This document shows, piece after piece, positions 1-10,565 of a DNA stretch of 25,385 bases. A program made the position numbers and the translations under genes. This DNA is from a virus: positions 1 to 25,385 of IMG/VR virus record IMGVR_UViG_3300008448_000571. One strand, written 5' to 3'. Below the pieces are notes generated by a model, which was given only the letters and a program-made list of their open reading frames with translations, had not been told where the DNA came from and made no database searches. How positions within the stretch are numbered: position 1 is the first letter of the stretch; each line of letters starts with the position of its first letter.

Positions 1-68
1 AGGTAGTAAACAAGATCCTTGCCATCTTGCAAATACTTGTTTGTCGTATCTTCGGTTATTGTAAACAT
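1..68 (-). CDS. Partial gene leaving the window, unknown product
   Basis: An ATG at 68 opens a frame that stays open to the window edge, giving 22 residues that begin MFTITEDTTNKYLQDG. It is preceded by AAAAAAAGGAAGCAA, a close relative of the AAAGGAAG ribosome-binding motif used by the other genes of this block. It starts 13 bases after the stop of the 359-aa gene, so it is probably co-transcribed with it. The visible N-terminus is too short to recognise a family. If the upstream cassette is for nucleotide or base modification, the missing part of this gene would be informative. Confidence 0.6.
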   Translation of the reverse strand, partial: MFTITEDTTNKYLQDGKDLVYY

Positions 69-81
69 TTGCTTCCTTTTT

Positions 82-1161
82 TTACACGATTGACAATTTG
101 TCTTCGAGCCTGATTATGTGCTTTACATAAGAATGATGCTTCGGGTAATCATCAATCATTGAGTTGTTATTGACTTGCCATGCTTCTAAATGCTCATAAC
201 CTTTAGGAACATAACAACCAACATACCTAACGTAGTCGCAGCAAACATCCTCAAGTGAGTAGGCTTTGCCTAGACCTCTTTCTTGATCATCTTCTGCGTA
301 CGGAGAATTCAAATGCGAAACAACGTAATCCATTGCTCCGTCTAGGAATGCCCGCTTGTTCTTGAATCCTTCTCCATCAAAAAGTAGTTCAAGAGCTTCA
401 ACGGCATTGCTTCCGTAATTGACCCTAGAATAACGATCAATGTAGTGCGGCATGTATTCTGCAATGTCCATAACCCACGCGGTCATCACAAAGTGGAATT
501 GCTTCAATCCTCTCGCCTTATGCCATTCGTTTACCCAATCAACGGTCTTAGCGACGCTCAGGCCGCCACCAGACTGCTGCAAGTAGCGAAGTGTGTCTAC
601 AACCAAATCGGTCATAAACTCGCCAATGTAAAGCTCAGAGCCTCGTTTGTAGTCTCCTTCTGGTTTAGGAAACGGAGGAATTTGGTTACCAATTGACGTG
701 AAGATTGGTCGGCCAAGTCTCATTTCGTCAAGAACGAACTTGCGCATGTCTTCGTGGTCATTTGCATTCAGCGCCATGTCGGCTAGGATTGAATTCCTAA
801 AACCATGATCCCATGAAAATGATGCACCTGATCCAGTGACTCGGTGAATCAAGAATAACCAAAGCCAATCTTCTTCTGAGTACACCTCATGGATTCCGTC
901 AAACTTACGATCGATCTGCCATCTTTTTGGATTTTCAGATCCACACCAAATCTGCTGGATTGCATTACTAAAACCTGCGTATTTTCTTTCGACTACGTCA
1001 TAGATGGTTATGTAGTGCATCAATGGATCTGGTACGTGAAGATCTTCCGAGGTATCCCTGCCATTCTGCGATGAGACGTTTAGGTGCTGAAGAGTCACGG
1101 CTCGGTCATAGTATTGCTTGAAGTCTTCCCAATACTTGGTTTCAATTATTTTTCCAGACAC
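82..1161 (-). CDS. 359-aa protein, possible thymine-hypermodification (glycosylase-like helical) enzyme
   Basis: The frame is open from 1419, but everything upstream of about 1161 lies over the 3' end of the SGNH-like gene and reads as unlike protein. I start it at GTG 1161, which has AAAGGAA nine bases upstream and gives MSGKIIETKYWEDF. The protein is largely helical and soluble, with no signal peptide. Visible motifs are EEDWLWLF (97-104), RVTGSGASF (107-115) followed by DHGFRNS (118-124), and SLEDVCCDYVRY (302-313). The TGSGASF/DHGFRN region and the final acidic-cysteine helix remind me of the DNA-glycosylase-like enzymes predicted to act on hypermodified thymines (alpha-glutamyl/putrescinyl thymine pyrophosphorylase clades). 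That resemblance is from memory and unverified. The neighbours are a dNMP-kinase-like P-loop protein and an SGNH-like protein, with start-stop overlaps between all three. The product could also be an unrelated phage-specific helical protein. Confidence 0.6.
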   Translation of the reverse strand: MSGKIIETKYWEDFKQYYDRAVTLQHLNVSSQNGRDTSEDLHVPDPLMHYITIYDVVERKYAGFSNAIQQIWCGSENPKRWQIDRKFDGIHEVYSEEDWLWLFLIHRVTGSGASFSWDHGFRNSILADMALNANDHEDMRKFVLDEMRLGRPIFTSIGNQIPPFPKPEGDYKRGSELYIGEFMTDLVVDTLRYLQQSGGGLSVAKTVDWVNEWHKARGLKQFHFVMTAWVMDIAEYMPHYIDRYSRVNYGSNAVEALELLFDGEGFKNKRAFLDGAMDYVVSHLNSPYAEDDQERGLGKAYSLEDVCCDYVRYVGCYVPKGYEHLEAWQVNNNSMIDDYPKHHSYVKHIIRLEDKLSIV

Positions 1162-2158
1162 TGGCCACGTTCCTTTCCAAATCCCATTCGTAAAATTCTG
1201 GTGAAAGGTGGACAGATCTAGGCTTCTCCATGTAAGTATCTGCATACTCTTCTGGATCCATAGAATACCAAGACGCCGGCCATTTCTTAACCGAATCGAA
1301 GTAGGTGTGTAGTTTACTAGAAAGCAATGATCTGATTTCGTTCCTAGTTTCCCAATCGCCAAAAAACGGTGTTCCTTTATAGAAACCAGTCTTCGGCAGT
1401 TTCCTACCTTCAAACTCAATCGGGTAAGGATCGGTTATTTCCACTTCTAGGACGCGACCGAACTTTAGCAATGGACTTATTTGGCTTTCTAGCCGGATCA
1501 TCAAATCATCAATTGCCTTGAATCTGTCTGGCAATCTGGCTAGGTGGTGACGAATGTCAATGTTCCCTGCTTGAATCACAAGCTTTTCAATTTGATCGAT
1601 TCCAGCTTCGTCTAGCATTTCTTCAATGCCTCGGTTCAGTAAGCCGTGTAATGTCAAACCATCGTTTCGTAGCACTATGGTATTGGTTTGGTATCTAGCA
1701 ACTGAATGAGAGTCACCAAGAACTATCCTGCGCGGATTCTTGACAATGTCTTTGTGAGTAATAACTTTTGCATTGTCTTGGATCTTCTGGATCTCATGCC
1801 AATCAGAGTCTGACATGTTGAATTCTGACTTCTCTGCTCTAGGCTTTAGAAGTCCAACCAAATCAGGCATAGGTCTTTCAAGTGAAACAATGTTTTCCCA
1901 GCCCTTGCGAATCATTAGCTGTAAACGCTCGACGTGCTCAGGAAGCCATCCGCCGTTTAGGTTATAGGCATCTTTGAATTCCATGCCGTGAGAAATAGCC
2001 CAGACATCGGCAGATTCGATCTTGTCAAGATCTCCAAATGCTAGTTCAACTTCATTGCCAGAATCTTCAAGCATGCACTTTTGAGTGCGTGGCCACGAAG
2101 ACCTGTGAGAGTAGATCCTCTTGGTGTAGGAGGTCAGCACATCATCGATGATCATCAT
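1142..2158 (-). CDS. SGNH/GDSL-hydrolase-like protein
   Basis: This 338-aa protein has a C-terminal half with the block pattern of SGNH hydrolases. RIVLGDSHS (144-152) would carry the nucleophilic Ser150, AGNIDIRHH (197-205) would supply the oxyanion-hole Asn199, and SVHLSPEFY (315-323) would supply the catalytic His317. The Asp normally three residues before that His is not there (Arg314 instead), so the triad may be a dyad or this block may be misread. Residues 1-140 form a separate N-terminal part that I do not recognise. There is no signal peptide, so it should act in the cytoplasm, unlike secreted cell-wall esterases. Its ATG overlaps the kinase stop as ATGA, and its 3' end overlaps the next gene by 20 bases, which implies translational coupling. 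A role in editing or removing an acyl group during nucleotide or base modification is speculation. Confidence 0.6.
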   Translation of the reverse strand: MMIIDDVLTSYTKRIYSHRSSWPRTQKCMLEDSGNEVELAFGDLDKIESADVWAISHGMEFKDAYNLNGGWLPEHVERLQLMIRKGWENIVSLERPMPDLVGLLKPRAEKSEFNMSDSDWHEIQKIQDNAKVITHKDIVKNPRRIVLGDSHSVARYQTNTIVLRNDGLTLHGLLNRGIEEMLDEAGIDQIEKLVIQAGNIDIRHHLARLPDRFKAIDDLMIRLESQISPLLKFGRVLEVEITDPYPIEFEGRKLPKTGFYKGTPFFGDWETRNEIRSLLSSKLHTYFDSVKKWPASWYSMDPEEYADTYMEKPRSVHLSPEFYEWDLERNVASVWKNN

Positions 2159-2667
2159 TTTGCACCTAGAATCGCTAGACCAACTAATTCTCGAGCAACA
2201 TACTTCAACGTCGGAAGTGTGGCTTGCTTGATAACGTGGTATTCGTTTTCTTTTGCGTAGTTTGCATAGAAGTTGTAAACCTGTTCGACGTGCTTATCTT
2301 GAAGATAGTCTTCACCGCGATCAGCAAGACGCCTTTTGACCTCTTCTAGGCTTGGCATCATTATTACTTTGATAGCACCTAGATCATCTAGAAGCTTTTC
2401 GATCTTGTCTTTCCATTCGCCTTCGACCTTTGATTCAGATCTGTAAAGTGGACCGTAAATCATTTCGCCGACGTGCCACCTATCTGACACCATGAAATCT
2501 TCTTCGACGTCGAGTAGAGGCAAGTAGTATTCTTCTTCGACAGTGTCGCGAATCGGACCGCAATGCCAAGAGATCACATTGAAACGATCTGGAATTTCCT
2601 CTTTGATCATTTCAATAAACGTAGATTTGCCTGCGCCATCTACTCCTTCAACGATGATGATTGGCAT
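2155..2667 (-). CDS. P-loop nucleotide kinase, thymidylate-kinase-like
   Basis: At 170 aa it is slightly shorter than bacterial thymidylate kinases (about 200-210). The Walker A motif is GVDGAGKST (8-16). SDRWHVGEMIYG (61-72) matches the DR(Y/F/W) substrate-binding motif of dTMP kinases. RLADRGEDYLQ (113-123) is placed like the LID segment. The family transfers phosphate from ATP to a (deoxy)nucleoside monophosphate. In phages with modified bases, related P-loop proteins either charge a modified dNMP or phosphorylate 5-hydroxymethyluracil in DNA. The sequence alone does not separate these roles. The start codon shares one base with the stop of the 58-aa gene (TAATG), and the stop overlaps the SGNH-like gene (ATGA), so the three form one coupled unit. 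Confidence 0.8.
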   Translation of the reverse strand: MPIIIVEGVDGAGKSTFIEMIKEEIPDRFNVISWHCGPIRDTVEEEYYLPLLDVEEDFMVSDRWHVGEMIYGPLYRSESKVEGEWKDKIEKLLDDLGAIKVIMMPSLEEVKRRLADRGEDYLQDKHVEQVYNFYANYAKENEYHVIKQATLPTLKYVARELVGLAILGAK

Positions 2668-3302: not shown

Positions 3303-3647
3303 CTACCCATTTGGCATCTTTTTTTCAAAGATTTTCCGGCCATAATTATCATCGAAAAGGTACCAATTCCCTAGCATAAAGTCATAAACCGGCGAGGTCA
3401 GAGGATCTTCCCAGGATTCTAGCTTCCAGCCAAACCATTTGGCTTGCTCTGCAAGGCCGCTGGAGGACTCTATAAGGCCATTCATAACCGAGCACATAAC
3501 AACCACATTGGACGGTTTTTCGCGCGTCTTCGAGCCACCCATGCCTCGATTGGCACGGTGATTTGGCACTAGGGTATCATCAGAGATTCCGCAATGGTAG
3601 CAATGTTTGTCCCTGGCCAGGAACTTGTCAAACTGTTTCTTATTCAT
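3303..3647 (-). CDS. HNH endonuclease
   Basis: This 114-aa protein has the layout of the short HNH proteins common in actinophages. CYHCG (16-20) is the first half of a zinc knuckle. PNHRANRGMGGS (28-39) carries the catalytic His30. PSNVVVMC (45-52) and MNGLIES (55-61) complete the HNH core, with N56 where the metal-ligand His or Asn lies. The family makes nicks or double-strand breaks in DNA. In HK97-like and some other phages such proteins assist terminase, but here the gene is in the replication and recombination region, far from terminase. It overlaps the upstream 78-aa gene by eight bases and is the last gene before the promoter gap. Confidence 0.8.
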   Translation of the reverse strand: MNKKQFDKFLARDKHCYHCGISDDTLVPNHRANRGMGGSKTREKPSNVVVMCSVMNGLIESSSGLAEQAKWFGWKLESWEDPLTSPVYDFMLGNWYLFDDNYGRKIFEKKMPNG

Positions 3648-4229: not shown

Positions 4230-4725
4230 CGATGTTGCTTCCAGCCACTGCGATCTCATCTAGGATCTTTTTTGCAGCACCAGCTTTGTTAGCCTCGACC
4301 CAGAGTTTCCTAGCGTCAGATTTGCTCTTGATACCCTTGATCCTAGCTGCATCGAACTTCTCTACAGGTTTAGCCGATCGTTCTACTTTTTCCATTTCTT
4401 CTCGGCTAGCTCTTTTGTTTCCTGAGAAGTTAGCATTAGCAAGAGCTCGGCCGATCGATGAAGTTTCACAATTCTCGAGCGCTGACGTTTTATTCGCCAT
4501 GCCAGCACCGTCGATCTCAAAAGCCATTCCAGTTGCTTTAGGAAGCCCATTGGCTTGATCTTCTCTGTCAAAATAAATACTCGCTTTCACTACCCAGGTA
4601 GACACTTGCCTATCCTGATCTGTTGTTAGGTTTTCGGTGATGATTCGCCCGTCTGGGTGAACCTCATAGAATCGTTTGATTCTTTGTTCTACGGTTTCAT
4701 AGTCATCTAGATTGAAATGTGCCAT
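4219..4725 (-). CDS. Putative single-strand annealing / ssDNA-binding recombination protein
   Basis: The protein is about 168 aa from MAHFNLDDYETV. ATG 4731 (MKMAHF) overlaps the exonuclease stop as ATGA, but the AAAGGA signal is only three bases from it and nine from ATG 4725, so I prefer 4725. A strand-rich N-terminal region (about 40-75) leads to ALENCETSSIGRALAN (82-97). A Thr/Ser-Ile-Gly-Arg-Ala-Leu block of this kind is typical of phage proteins related to the Rad52/Erf/Sak annealing group. The C-terminal 60 residues are Lys- and Ala-rich and could contact DNA. It follows a YqaJ-type exonuclease immediately, the arrangement of lambda Exo/Beta-like recombination pairs. The exact annealase family is not settled by eye. 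Confidence 0.65.
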   Translation of the reverse strand: MAHFNLDDYETVEQRIKRFYEVHPDGRIITENLTTDQDRQVSTWVVKASIYFDREDQANGLPKATGMAFEIDGAGMANKTSALENCETSSIGRALANANFSGNKRASREEMEKVERSAKPVEKFDAARIKGIKSKSDARKLWVEANKAGAAKKILDEIAVAGSNIDVE

Positions 4726-4727
4726 CT

Positions 4728-5636
4728 TCATGCTTCCTTTCTGCTATTGATCAGAAACGGAAATCCTCCGCTTCTTGATGTTCTTGTCAAGACCCATTCG
4801 CCATCAACGAGTCCTTTTCTTGCGTTTCCCATTTCCTTCATTACACGAGCCTTCAAAGCATTTGCTTCATTGGTTGCTTCTTCGGCTTTGGATTGTGCAT
4901 TGAAGTAGTGGACGCCAAGATCTCCAAGTTCAACTTCTAGATCGGTTTCGATCTCAGGGTGTTGTGTTCTTAGAGTCTCTAGCGTTGACTTAGATCCATC
5001 AAAATCTGGTTCGGTATTTGTTTTGATTAGTTCTAAGAACTTTTCGACCTGCTCAAGAGCAGCTTCCTGGCTGAACTCATTCGCATCCAATTCGTATTCG
5101 CGATACTTATTGCCATGGAATAGAACGGCCACCCAAGCTTTTTTGATGTTGAAAGTTTGCATGTACCACTGAACTTGTGTTTCGTAGTATCTAGGAACTC
5201 CGTCTTTCCAGTCGTCTTCGTACATTGCAGTCTTGATCTCAAGAACTCCAAGTTCACCGGACTCAGTCTCAAATAAGGCATCTGGGTTAGTGATCTGATA
5301 AGCTCGATCAGGATGTGCCCATGTTCCTACTCGTCTGTGGATCTTTAGTTCTGGGTGATTACTCTCAAACTTGTCAATGATGACTGGTTCAAGTAAGTTA
5401 CCCCACTCCATTGATTCGTTGACATCGATCTCGCCAGATGCTTTACCTGTTTTCTGGCACCATAATGTATACGGACTTGTCCATTTGTTGAACCCACAAA
5501 TCGTGGCTACTTCAGAACCACCGATTCCGGTCTTACGTAGATCAAGCCACTCCTGAGAACCATTCTCAAGATCAGCAAGAAACACCGCACCGGTTTTCTT
5601 TTCTATGGATTTACGTGTTAGATTGGCATTAGCCAT
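4728..5636 (-). CDS. YqaJ-type (lambda exonuclease family) DNA exonuclease
   Basis: This 302-aa protein has the motifs of the YqaJ/lambda-exo PD-(D/E)xK nuclease family. GIGGSEVA (38-45) precedes the fold, and EWGNLLEP (77-84) carries the helix Glu. NPDALF (117-122) supplies the metal-binding Asp119, GVLEIKTA (130-137) supplies Glu133 and Lys135, and QVQWYM (154-159) closes the active site. The family digests one strand of double-stranded DNA from ends, leaving tails for an annealing protein, which is encoded next (ATGA overlap). Residues about 240-285 look like a coiled coil. The start ATG 5636 follows AAGAAAGGAAG with an eight-base spacer and lies inside the 3' end of the GIY-YIG-like frame. 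Confidence 0.85.
   Translation of the reverse strand: MANANLTRKSIEKKTGAVFLADLENGSQEWLDLRKTGIGGSEVATICGFNKWTSPYTLWCQKTGKASGEIDVNESMEWGNLLEPVIIDKFESNHPELKIHRRVGTWAHPDRAYQITNPDALFETESGELGVLEIKTAMYEDDWKDGVPRYYETQVQWYMQTFNIKKAWVAVLFHGNKYREYELDANEFSQEAALEQVEKFLELIKTNTEPDFDGSKSTLETLRTQHPEIETDLEVELGDLGVHYFNAQSKAEEATNEANALKARVMKEMGNARKGLVDGEWVLTRTSRSGGFPFLINSRKEA
4733..4742 (-). repeat. Start-associated sequence before the annealing protein gene
   Basis: AGAAAGGAAG on the minus strand, ten of the eleven bases of the repeat (the outermost A is C). It supports ATG 4725 over ATG 4731 by spacing. Confidence 0.65.
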
Positions 5637-6100
5637 CGCTTTAACTTCCTTTCTTCGGTGGCTATTAGCCCCCGTCTGGTTTCTACTGGTCGGGGGCTTC
5701 TCAGCTTTCCGATAGAACTATTGTACAACTTGTGTGTGACAATCCTGGCTTTTGGATGGTAGATTTCCATCGATTGTCTGAAAGATCTTCTGATCAGTCT
5801 TTTGACCTTATTATTAGGCACGTCAGATGAGAAGGTTTCCGTGTAACCTCTTGGAAGATCTGACTTAGTCAATAGGTTCCTAGACTTCTGATGGCTTCGG
5901 ATGGCCTGCAAGACCACTTGCTCGGATCGTTTGATCACTCTGCCATCTTCTGAAAACATAAAGCTGTTGATGATCCATTTGCTTCCATAGCGCTTTTGGA
6001 CCGTGGATAGATTATTGGTTATTCCAACCTTTTTGACCCGGATGCTAGGATTTTCAAGGAAATAAAGGTATCCAGGCTTTGACGGGTTGAATGAATTCAT
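5618..6100 (-). CDS. GIY-YIG-superfamily nuclease-like protein
   Basis: This 160-aa protein has an N-terminal half resembling the GIY-YIG variant of the T5orf172/MUG113 type. GYLYF (10-14) stands for the GIY strand, KKVGITNN (23-30) for the YIG strand, and an Arg follows at about 37. A downstream Glu is available at SEQVVLQAI (59-67), and GYTETF (85-90) resembles the late Glu-containing motif of MUG113-type proteins. Family members cut DNA or RNA, but several of this branch are untested. The start overlaps the sigma-like stop by one base. The last 35 or so residues, rich in Arg and Pro, are encoded over a TTGTACAA site, a GC-rich hairpin and the exonuclease ribosome-binding site, and overlap the exonuclease by 19 bases. 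Confidence 0.65.
   Translation of the reverse strand: MNSFNPSKPGYLYFLENPSIRVKKVGITNNLSTVQKRYGSKWIINSFMFSEDGRVIKRSEQVVLQAIRSHQKSRNLLTKSDLPRGYTETFSSDVPNNKVKRLIRRSFRQSMEIYHPKARIVTHKLYNSSIGKLRSPRPVETRRGLIATEERKLKRWLMPI
5645..5655 (-). repeat. Start-associated sequence before the exonuclease gene
   Basis: Exact copy of AAGAAAGGAAG on the minus strand, eight bases upstream of ATG 5636, inside the 3' end of the GIY-YIG-like frame. Confidence 0.75.
5667..5698 (-). other. GC-rich hairpin ahead of the exonuclease gene
   Basis: AGCCCCCG pairs with CGGGGGCT over eight base pairs around a 16-base loop. It lies within the last codons of the GIY-YIG-like frame, about 30 bases before the exonuclease start. 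No T-run follows on the minus strand, so it is not a standard intrinsic terminator. It could pause transcription, protect the mRNA, or be a relic of an older gene boundary. Confidence 0.55.
5721..5728. promoter_or_regulatory. TTGTACAA palindrome, candidate operator or promoter element
   Basis: Second copy of the palindrome, about 85 bases before the exonuclease start and inside the GIY-YIG-like frame. The minus strand also reads TACAAT here, a possible -10, but no convincing -35 is present. Confidence 0.35.
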
Positions 6101-6696
6101 TACTTATTGTCCAAGATCATCTGGATCTGGCGTAGTGCCTTTCTGACTCTTTTCCTAGCTCCAGGAGCAGAAACTCCATCAAGCATTGCAATGTCTCTAA
6201 ATGTGTATTCCTGTTCGTATTTCCAGATCAGGACTTTTTGCATGTCCACATCTAGTTTTTGGAATGCTAGCTTTACGTCCAAGACAGCAGTTTTTGCGTC
6301 GTCAAGGCTTGGATCCCAATGGTCTATTGGCGCACCGGTATTTGGGTCAACCTTCAACCCTTGGTTGAATGATGAATTGAACATGGCTACCAAAGATCTC
6401 TCAATCTGTTGAATCGAGTATCTTGAGTAGTAATCCAAAGGAGTGCCTGAGCGTTCTTGCTGCTCGGCGGTACAGAACGAATTAGCTTTACGCCGCAATG
6501 CGGTGATCAGCTTCAAAGTCCCATCGACTTCAGATCGGTATCTGATGACGGTATCTTGGTTCTCGTATAGCCAAAGCACTAACAAGCTTTCAAGATCTTC
6601 AAAGTCGACTAGTGACCACTTAGAAGAAAGCCGCCTAGCCAAGTTTCTTGCAATGTTTATTTCGCCCTGCAAGATCGGGCCTGAACTTACTATCAT
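6100..6696 (-). CDS. Sigma-70-family-like transcription factor
   Basis: This 198-aa protein has the two-part layout of small sigma factors. Residues about 13-78 form a helical region-2-like segment with an acidic patch (DFEDLESLL, 31-39) and conserved aromatics. Residues about 143-193 form a region-4-like helix-turn-helix: YTFRDIAMLDGVSAPGARKR (164-183) has the spacing of sigma region 4.2. The linker holds DPNTGAPIDHWDP, likely loop. Phage-coded sigma-like factors redirect host RNA polymerase to middle or late promoters. It is the first gene after the late terminator. No Shine-Dalgarno sequence precedes ATG 6696, but TACAAT ends six bases before it, which fits a leaderless transcript. A strict DNA-binding role without polymerase binding cannot be excluded. 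Confidence 0.7.
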   Translation of the reverse strand: MIVSSGPILQGEINIARNLARRLSSKWSLVDFEDLESLLVLWLYENQDTVIRYRSEVDGTLKLITALRRKANSFCTAEQQERSGTPLDYYSRYSIQQIERSLVAMFNSSFNQGLKVDPNTGAPIDHWDPSLDDAKTAVLDVKLAFQKLDVDMQKVLIWKYEQEYTFRDIAMLDGVSAPGARKRVRKALRQIQMILDNK

Positions 6697-7878: not shown

Positions 7879-8735
<857 letters not shown>

Positions 8736-8736
<1 letters not shown>

Positions 8737-9683: not shown

Positions 9684-10565
9684 TTACGAGATTGTAAAGG
9701 TGCCTGTTCCAGCAGTAATCGAAGTTACTTTGAAGCCTCCAGATGTTGTTGTTGTACTAGTCAAGCCACCTGAAAAGTTTAGGACAAAAAGCTCTGGGTA
9801 TTTAAGAATTACAACTCCAGAACCACCTGCAGCACCTGACTGAGTGCTGTCTTGTCTTTGGCCACCACCGCCACCGCCGCCAGTATTTGCTGTTCCTGCT
9901 ACTGCTGGGTTATACCTACCAGCACCGCCACCACCGCCACCAGCACCACCAGCACCAGCGCTATTCCAAGCACCACCACCGCCACCGCCAGCACGAGTAA
10001 TAGAAGTTCCAGTTATAGATGAAGCCGTTCCAGCACCACCGCTACCGCCATTGTTGCCACCGCCGCCATTACCTACAGCCGAAGCACCACCGCCACCGCC
10101 AGCGCCACCAAAATCCCCTACTTGTCCATTTCCACCATTGTTTCCTTGGCTCGGTGAGGTTGATGGGGTGTTTCCAGCGCCACCGACTTTTCCGTCATTT
10201 GAACCGCCACCGCCACCTGAGCCACCAGCTTGACCAGCCTCGCCTTGATTTCCACCTCTACCGCCTCCAGCGCTTGTATAGGTGTGAAACGTAGTATTTG
10301 CGCCGTTAGTGCTAGTGGCACCACCCGCTCCAATTGACACTGTAAAAGTATCGGCAGGATTTAGGTTAAGGCTAGTAAAGCTTCTGTATCCACCAGCGCC
10401 ACCAGCACCACCGCCACCACCACCGGGGCAGTTGCTACCGCCACCGCCACCGCCAATTACAAGAGCGTCAAAAATAACTGGGACAGAGCTAGGGTATCCA
10501 ACAAGCATACTGTTGTATTTTCTATTATTTCTCACGCCTGCGTTTTTTAGGCTTTGGTTAGCCAT
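9684..10565 (-). CDS. Glycine-rich tail fibre / adhesin-like protein
   Basis: This 293-aa protein has a short N-terminal region (about 1-35) followed by a very Gly-rich domain to about residue 240. That domain has runs of five to seven Gly interrupted by NGG, GAGG and SGGAG units, and a conserved edge FTSLNLNPADTFTVSIGAGG (64-83). Such domains form polyglycine-helix sandwiches in phage receptor-binding adhesins and in the glycine-rich domain family of fibre proteins. GVVILKYPE closes the domain, as usual, and a small beta-rich tail follows (about 255-293). With the collagen-like protein it likely forms the host-recognition equipment. The repeat DNA produces long antisense open frames that I discount. 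ATG 10565 has AGGAG upstream. Confidence 0.8.
   Translation of the reverse strand: MANQSLKNAGVRNNRKYNSMLVGYPSSVPVIFDALVIGGGGGGSNCPGGGGGGAGGAGGYRSFTSLNLNPADTFTVSIGAGGATSTNGANTTFHTYTSAGGGRGGNQGEAGQAGGSGGGGGSNDGKVGGAGNTPSTSPSQGNNGGNGQVGDFGGAGGGGGASAVGNGGGGNNGGSGGAGTASSITGTSITRAGGGGGGAWNSAGAGGAGGGGGGAGRYNPAVAGTANTGGGGGGGQRQDSTQSGAAGGSGVVILKYPELFVLNFSGGLTSTTTTSGGFKVTSITAGTGTFTIS

Follow-up and report, generated by a model that had tools for sequence, protein, structure and literature searches.

Does the phage behind IMG/VR record IMGVR_UViG_3300008448_000571 (25,385 bp, analyzed here at full length as the window) chemically modify its DNA and, if so, on which base? The question is raised by the left edge of the window, where three genes overlap and a fourth runs off the end. 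A preliminary description of this DNA had read them as a candidate thymine-hypermodification set, with a P-loop kinase acting on 5-hydroxymethyluracil, a glycosylase-like helical enzyme and an SGNH-like protein. Our analysis indicates that these genes likely form the left portion of a cassette for hypermodifying phage DNA, most likely acting on 5-hydroxymethylcytosine (5-hmC), with amino-acid-transferase-like, pyridoxal phosphate (PLP) and SGNH enzymes. The hypermodification role is well supported.

All four genes lie on the minus strand. The gene for P0003 (2155..2667, 170 aa) encodes a P-loop kinase of the thymidylate-kinase type with the P-loop GVDGAGKST. It is followed by the genes for P0002 (1142..2158, 338 aa), an SGNH-fold protein with a GDSH motif and no evident signal peptide, and P0001 (82..1161, 359 aa), a helical protein containing the motif HRVTGSGASFSWDHGFRN, whose GTG start is consistent with the starts of its homologues. 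The kinase and SGNH open reading frames (ORFs) overlap by 4 bp (ATGA) and the SGNH and 359-aa ORFs by 20 bp. The fourth ORF (1..69), preceded by AAGGAAG, starts at base 69 and is open at the window edge, so that only its first 23 codons are present. These coordinates confirmed the overlapping trio and the truncated fourth gene of the preliminary description. The arrangement of the trio is not due to chance, since the SGNH and 359-aa genes adjoin in most related loci. The structural genes of the record are of the siphovirus type, and its terminase is nearest to actinophage-type terminases.

Predicted Fold of the 359-aa Protein

The AlphaFold2 model of P0001 (pLDDT 86.2, pTM 0.86) was compared with the BFVD database using Foldseek. 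The top match was A0A6J5L8T5, named 'Amino acid:DNA transferase domain-containing' (E 4e-19, TM 0.81, 31% identity). The first five ranks, all with E ≤ 1.5e-4, were this protein, two uncharacterized proteins, a second protein with an amino acid:DNA transferase (AADT) domain (E 7e-5) and the 5-hydroxymethyldeoxyuridine (5-hmdU) DNA kinase of SP10 (E 1.5e-4, prob 1.0). Above noise, the named matches were thus amino-acid:DNA transferases and 5-hmdU DNA kinases only. Lower matches included HMUDK_hel and aGPT-Pplase1 proteins, among them those of W-14 and Lucky3, and, fainter still, an endonuclease III. Among solved structures, a Foldseek search of the PDB returned no match to the model. The structure prediction therefore agrees with the glycosylase-like helical type (aGPT-Pplase) suggested earlier for this protein, a fold of the kind seen in AADT and 5-hmdU DNA kinase proteins. 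Because the fold matches point this way while sequence methods place the protein in neither Pfam family, we name P0001 by its predicted fold as AADT/HMUDK-like (aGPT-Pplase type). In an alignment of 26 diverse members, the family showed 43 invariant positions, including HR.TGSGASF, AGF.N and ED..CD..R. A weak Pfam match to UPF1_1B was dropped as chance.

Composition of the Cassette in Related Loci

Single-sequence searches for P0001 relatives (tblastn against INPHARED to E 10, exact peptides in IMG/VR, Pfam, PHROGs and PDB) found none. Relatives were gathered in IMG/VR with a degenerate DNA pattern for HR[VIM]TGSGASF, which matched at least 119 loci, essentially all of them encoding P0001 homologues (tblastn E 5e-14 to 6e-156). 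A genome-collection scan added three P0001-type loci in bacterial bins, and no cultured phage in INPHARED had a P0001 match. ORF calling and clustering of the related loci defined a stable core read in one direction, made of the SGNH gene, the P0001 gene, a gene for a 295-aa PLP protein and a thymidylate synthase (TS)-family gene. Thirty loci were well flanked, with 3 kb or more of sequence to either side. The PLP gene was present in all 30 of them, a TS-family gene in 29 and the SGNH gene in 28, and 27 loci had all three. The core was found in at least three gene orders. In the closest relatives the order is SGNH, P0001, PLP, kinase and hydroxymethylase, whereas two T4-like marine groups have hydroxymethylase, P0001, PLP and SGNH, and hydroxymethylase, dCMP (deoxycytidylate) deaminase, SGNH, PLP and P0001, respectively. 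In two loci (L038 and L045) the SGNH and P0001 homologues are fused as a single polypeptide.

Locus L016 encodes, at positions 4485-5444, a further protein that has counterparts in L030, L031, L036, L071, L085 and L089; it is 318-329 aa long and in most cases adjoins the P0001 homologue. It matches the P0001 profile weakly (E ~4e-5, HHalign P 1e-4), falls in no Pfam family and is possibly a distant P0001 paralogue, that is, a second helical enzyme.

Further neighbors of the cassette are genes for dCMP deaminase and dUTPase_2, and also MazG-like genes. With a dUTPase, a deaminase, a MazG-like protein and a kinase close by, and with the activities of all members being predictions, one could picture a nucleotide-metabolism operon that modifies no DNA and whose helical protein does something else. 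We consider this very improbable, as the P0001 fold search gave, above noise, DNA-hypermodification enzymes only and the accompanying PLP protein belongs to the family found in the Pseudomonas phage M6 pathway.

The Truncated Gene and Its Probable PLP Family

The first 12 residues of the fourth gene product (MFTITEDTTNKY) are identical at nine positions to the N-terminus of the 295-aa PLP family, to which all of the 20 best matches belong, and the gene occupies the position of the PLP gene in relatives. This family has the GxK lysine of PLP fold-type-II enzymes (G53 and K55 invariant) and an STG loop, and it matches cysteine synthases (E 4.5e-4). Compared with M6 gp52 by HHalign, it gave a full-length alignment (prob 98.2, E 5.8e-14) that includes the C-terminal block PFP..YD.KAW..FWN, whereas the control profiles for SGNH and P0001 gave P 0.42 and P 0.15. 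The fourth gene of the window, with 23 residues visible, thus probably specifies a PLP enzyme of fold type II that belongs to the family of M6 gp52, and a PLP gene next in line fits the hypermodification context proposed at the outset. M6 gp52 reportedly acts in an amino-acid pathway in which radical SAM and PLP enzymes process the amino acid carried by hypermodified thymidine.

M6 gp52-like PLP domains were also seen in two phage proteins annotated as DNA methylases. In a Microcystis phage (L200:5992-6702) the domain lies beside a DNA-methylase domain, and in an Erythrobacter phage (L201:2326-4764) it is fused to one.

Probable Identity of the Modified Base

In dimeric TS-family enzymes, the residue at position 177 (E. 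coli TS numbering) distinguishes substrates, Asn indicating dUMP (deoxyuridylate) and Asp indicating dCMP (PMC8670742). We examined 93 TS-family neighbors, 76 from cassette loci and 17 from whole records, a few of the latter repeating loci already counted, and every one of the 93 had Asp at position 177. At the corresponding position, Asn is found in the dUMP hydroxymethylase of M6 and in a TS from a Microbacterium phage. The relatives carried a dCMP-type hydroxymethylase with Asp177 and the catalytic Cys, and none of the dUMP type with Asn177. The best solved relative of the marine hydroxymethylases was the T4 dCMP hydroxymethylase (E 2e-73), and that of the hydroxymethylase in close relatives of the window was the CMP 5-hydroxymethylase MilA (E 8e-20). 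The cassette hydroxymethylases fall into about five lineages, and as these share the same partners at mostly 17-32% identity between lineages, the association of the core with a hydroxymethylase of the cytosine type extends over widely differing enzymes. Exactly one TS-family gene was found in 25 of 28 whole records, the other three being fragments of less than 12 kb.

Given the Asp177 signature, the CMP and dCMP hydroxymethylase relatives, the single TS-family gene and the dCMP deaminase and dUTPase_2 neighbors, the sequences indicate that the modified base is most likely cytosine. The preliminary description had suggested looking for a PLP gene and a TS-like hydroxymethylase: the probable start of the former lies in the window and the latter occurs in relatives, but as a dCMP-type enzyme. 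The thymine target proposed there, with 5-hydroxymethyluracil made by a dUMP hydroxymethylase and the P-loop protein acting as the DNA kinase, draws on the helical and PLP enzymes, which are of the types found in the M6 thymidine pathway, and on the match of the kinase to thymidylate kinases. Nevertheless, we regard it as unlikely, because near-complete records hold a single TS-family gene and it is of the dCMP type, the nearest solved relatives are cytidylate hydroxymethylases, and the M6 protein with the DNA-kinase profile lacks a P-loop.

This last point concerns P0003, whose thymidylate-kinase-like nature was borne out by Pfam Thymidylate_kin (27.7 bits against a curated cut-off of 27) and by phrog_761 (E 9e-18). 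In its family 26 positions are at least 90% conserved, the P-loop among them. In close relatives the P-loop gene lies between the PLP and hydroxymethylase genes, directly before the latter. M6 gp55, which matches the 5-hmdU-DNA-kinase profile, has no P-loop and, of the neighboring M6 candidates tested, only the terminase small subunit has one. The T4 gp1 protein is a deoxynucleoside monophosphate (dNMP) kinase serving the nucleotide pool. Since M6 gp55 has no P-loop and the P-loop gene adjoins the hydroxymethylase gene in relatives, we favor a role in the pool over one on DNA, and P0003 is probably a dNMP/5-hydroxymethyl-dCMP (5-hmdCMP) kinase like T4 gp1, the substrate being a prediction from this context.

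Two observations on TS-family genes in cultured phages came from the same comparisons. Gp28 of Stenotrophomonas phage AXL_3 (L004:8935-9744), annotated as thymidylate synthase, has the dCMP-type Asp and 53% identity to the cassette hydroxymethylases, and this phage may for these reasons modify cytosine. Microbacterium phage Triscuit (L006:8001-12350) carries together genes for a kinase, a MazG-like protein, a dCMP deaminase and two TS-family proteins, one with Asp177 and the other with Asn177, which looks like another pyrimidine modification locus.

The SGNH Protein and Possible Sugar Decoration

The AlphaFold2 model of P0002 (pLDDT 93.7) matched SGNH esterases in the PDB, including 2hsj, 3mil and 3dt6 (Foldseek prob 1.0, E ~1e-3, target TM ~0.5), in agreement with the SGNH-like fold first suggested for this 338-aa protein. 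P0002 is thus predicted to have the SGNH three-layer fold. GDSH, D201, R203 and H205 are invariant in its family, and H317 nearly so. The third catalytic block reads G[NS]xD, in contrast to the canonical GxND, and the usual Asp three residues before H317 is absent. P0002 may be a hydrolase or an acyltransferase. An SGNH member is unusual in such a gene set, as had been remarked, and its presence sets the cassette apart from the M6 pathway.

P0002-like SGNH domains occur in the T4-like Aeromonas phages 44RR, 31 and AS4 (35-36% identity), fused there to a region that weakly resembles HMUDK_hel (E 0.003-0.004 for 44RR and AS4). In 44RR (L002:5992-8379) and AS4 (L199:5923-8340), both cultured phages, these SGNH-helical fusions of 795-805 aa are annotated as hypothetical, and they would make the SGNH function accessible in the laboratory. 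Unlike the cassette, the three phages have no P0001-profile match and no PLP partner, and a P0001-family profile search of the 44RR, M6 and W-14 genomes was empty. In Aeromonas phage 25 (L198:3767-5948), genes for UDP-galactopyranose mutase and an unassigned 358-aa protein lie directly upstream of the SGNH gene. In many marine loci, UDP-glucose dehydrogenase and epimerase genes adjoin the cassette; in the marine T4-like loci L087, L115 and L119, those for UDP-glucose dehydrogenase and an NAD-dependent epimerase follow it directly, which suggests sugar-nucleotide synthesis tied to modification or to surface structures.

Such sugar genes, together with the 44RR and AS4 fusions formed in phages with no PLP gene, would fit a cytosine modification that involves no amino acid. 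The 359-aa protein would then only phosphorylate or pyrophosphorylate 5-hmC, the SGNH and PLP enzymes would act on another adduct or on small molecules, and glycosylation would come last. We give this version little weight, since the PLP gene was present in every well-flanked locus whereas the sugar genes accompany only part of the marine loci, and since M6 gp52, functionally the nearest relative that the PLP family has, is said to belong to an amino-acid pathway.

Proposed Pathway and Comparison With Known Systems

For the cytosine system that we favor, the following route can be proposed. Gene order, folds, family relationships, the Asp signature and the co-occurrence of the genes come from the computation, and from them we deduce the catalytic steps, the amino acid, the SGNH reaction and the presence of a hydroxymethylase in this phage. 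A dCMP-type hydroxymethylase would act with the dCTPase/dUTPase-like and dCMP deaminase gene products and the P-loop kinase to provide 5-hydroxymethyl-dCTP (5-hmdCTP), which would be incorporated into phage DNA as in T4. The 359-aa protein would activate the hydroxymethyl group in DNA, add an amino acid to it, or both, by comparison with the M6 thymidine enzymes. The amino acid, once attached, would be the substrate of the gp52-type PLP enzyme, which would probably decarboxylate it and leave an aminoalkyl-type cytosine. The SGNH enzyme, which is linked physically with the 359-aa protein, would hydrolyze or transfer an acyl group on an intermediate or on the final adduct, and this adduct would shield the phage genome from nucleases. 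A rearrangement of carbon-carbon bonds of the M6 type is not expected, since radical SAM genes were missing from the surroundings of the cassette and from 14 of 16 large records, in a search that detected the M6 control. That uncultured phages of a widespread class have cytosine hypermodified with an amino-acid derivative, with an AADT-like enzyme decorating 5-hmC, an M6-type PLP enzyme trimming the product and an SGNH enzyme coupled to the transferase completing it, is a more specific proposition, and we judge the chances of this complete sequence to be evenly balanced.

Several points weigh against this interpretation. The hydroxymethylase of the window itself was not seen and would lie beyond the edge; because the window ends before it, the base and the product are deduced from relatives, which share 60-65% identity. 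Thymidine pathways, too, are fed by dCMP deaminase. No member of the P0001 family matched PF18723 or PF18724 over the Pfam cut-off, in single sequences or whole records, and in HHalign P0001 and HMUDK_hel gave P 0.029, compared with 0.015 for HMUDK_hel against AADT and 0.09-0.6 for unrelated pairs. The profile search proposed earlier for this protein thus missed the Pfam families and gave a suggestive HHalign value, which we therefore do not count as proof. Most loci encode one helical enzyme, with the second, distant paralogue in seven only, whereas M6 uses two, so that only one of the two steps, kinase or transferase, has an enzyme assigned to it in most loci. Finally, the role given to the SGNH enzyme in the route is conjectural.

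The M6 pathway consists of the TS-like hydroxymethylase gp58, the 5-hmdU DNA kinase gp55, the AADT gp51, the PLP enzyme gp52 and the radical SAM enzyme gp53. The cassette shares with M6 the type of helical fold, the PLP family and an accompanying TS-family hydroxymethylase, but its hydroxymethylase has Asp instead of Asn, one helical enzyme is present in most loci, an SGNH protein is added and there is no radical SAM gene nearby. In T4, the 5-hmC of the DNA is supplied by the dCMP hydroxymethylase gp42, the dNMP kinase gp1 and the dCTPase/dUTPase gp56. The marine relatives have a gp42-like hydroxymethylase, dCMP deaminase and dUTPase-type neighbors are present, and in close relatives a P-loop kinase lies beside the hydroxymethylase. 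In contrast to T4, the annotated genes of the cassettes included no T4 glucosyltransferase, whose place is taken by an aminoacylation-type module.

The 5-hmC decorations of phages that we know of are sugars and carbamoyl groups; amino-acid-derived side chains are, to our knowledge, found on thymidine, and we know of no such chemistry for cytosine. The carbamoyltransferase cassettes found by MetaGPA in uncultured phages include a TS-family gene with Asp177 and decorate the hydroxyl of 5-hmC (PMC8670742). The cassettes studied here are also from uncultured phages and resemble them in the Asp177 TS-family gene and in the dCMP deaminase and phosphoribosyl-ATP-pyrophosphohydrolase neighbors, but the decorating enzymes differ and no carbamoyltransferase was seen among the annotated neighbors. 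By analogy, the cassette may work like the M6 thymidine pathway behind a hydroxymethylcytosine front end common to T4 and the MetaGPA carbamoyl cassettes.

Other Genes in the Window

Elsewhere in the window, we noted a phage-encoded sigma-factor-like protein (6100-6696), an endonuclease-like protein (5618-6100, phrog_681) and an HNH endonuclease (3303-3647), the last two being possible homing enzymes. Two of the tail-region genes encode a collagen-like protein with Gly-x-y repeats (7879-8736) and a protein very rich in glycine (9684-10565).

Implications for Phage DNA Modification

For large families not covered by any Pfam model, the analysis directly predicts a function. If the proposal is correct, the aminoacylation module would be portable between bases, as it would be found in more than 100 uncultured phage fragments with about five divergent lineages of cytidylate hydroxymethylases. 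It would also predict a new DNA nucleoside and a new restriction resistance, and enzymes for writing amines onto cytosine could be drawn from the cassettes. The cassette would then be the cytosine counterpart of the thymine decorations that protect phage DNA from bacterial defenses.

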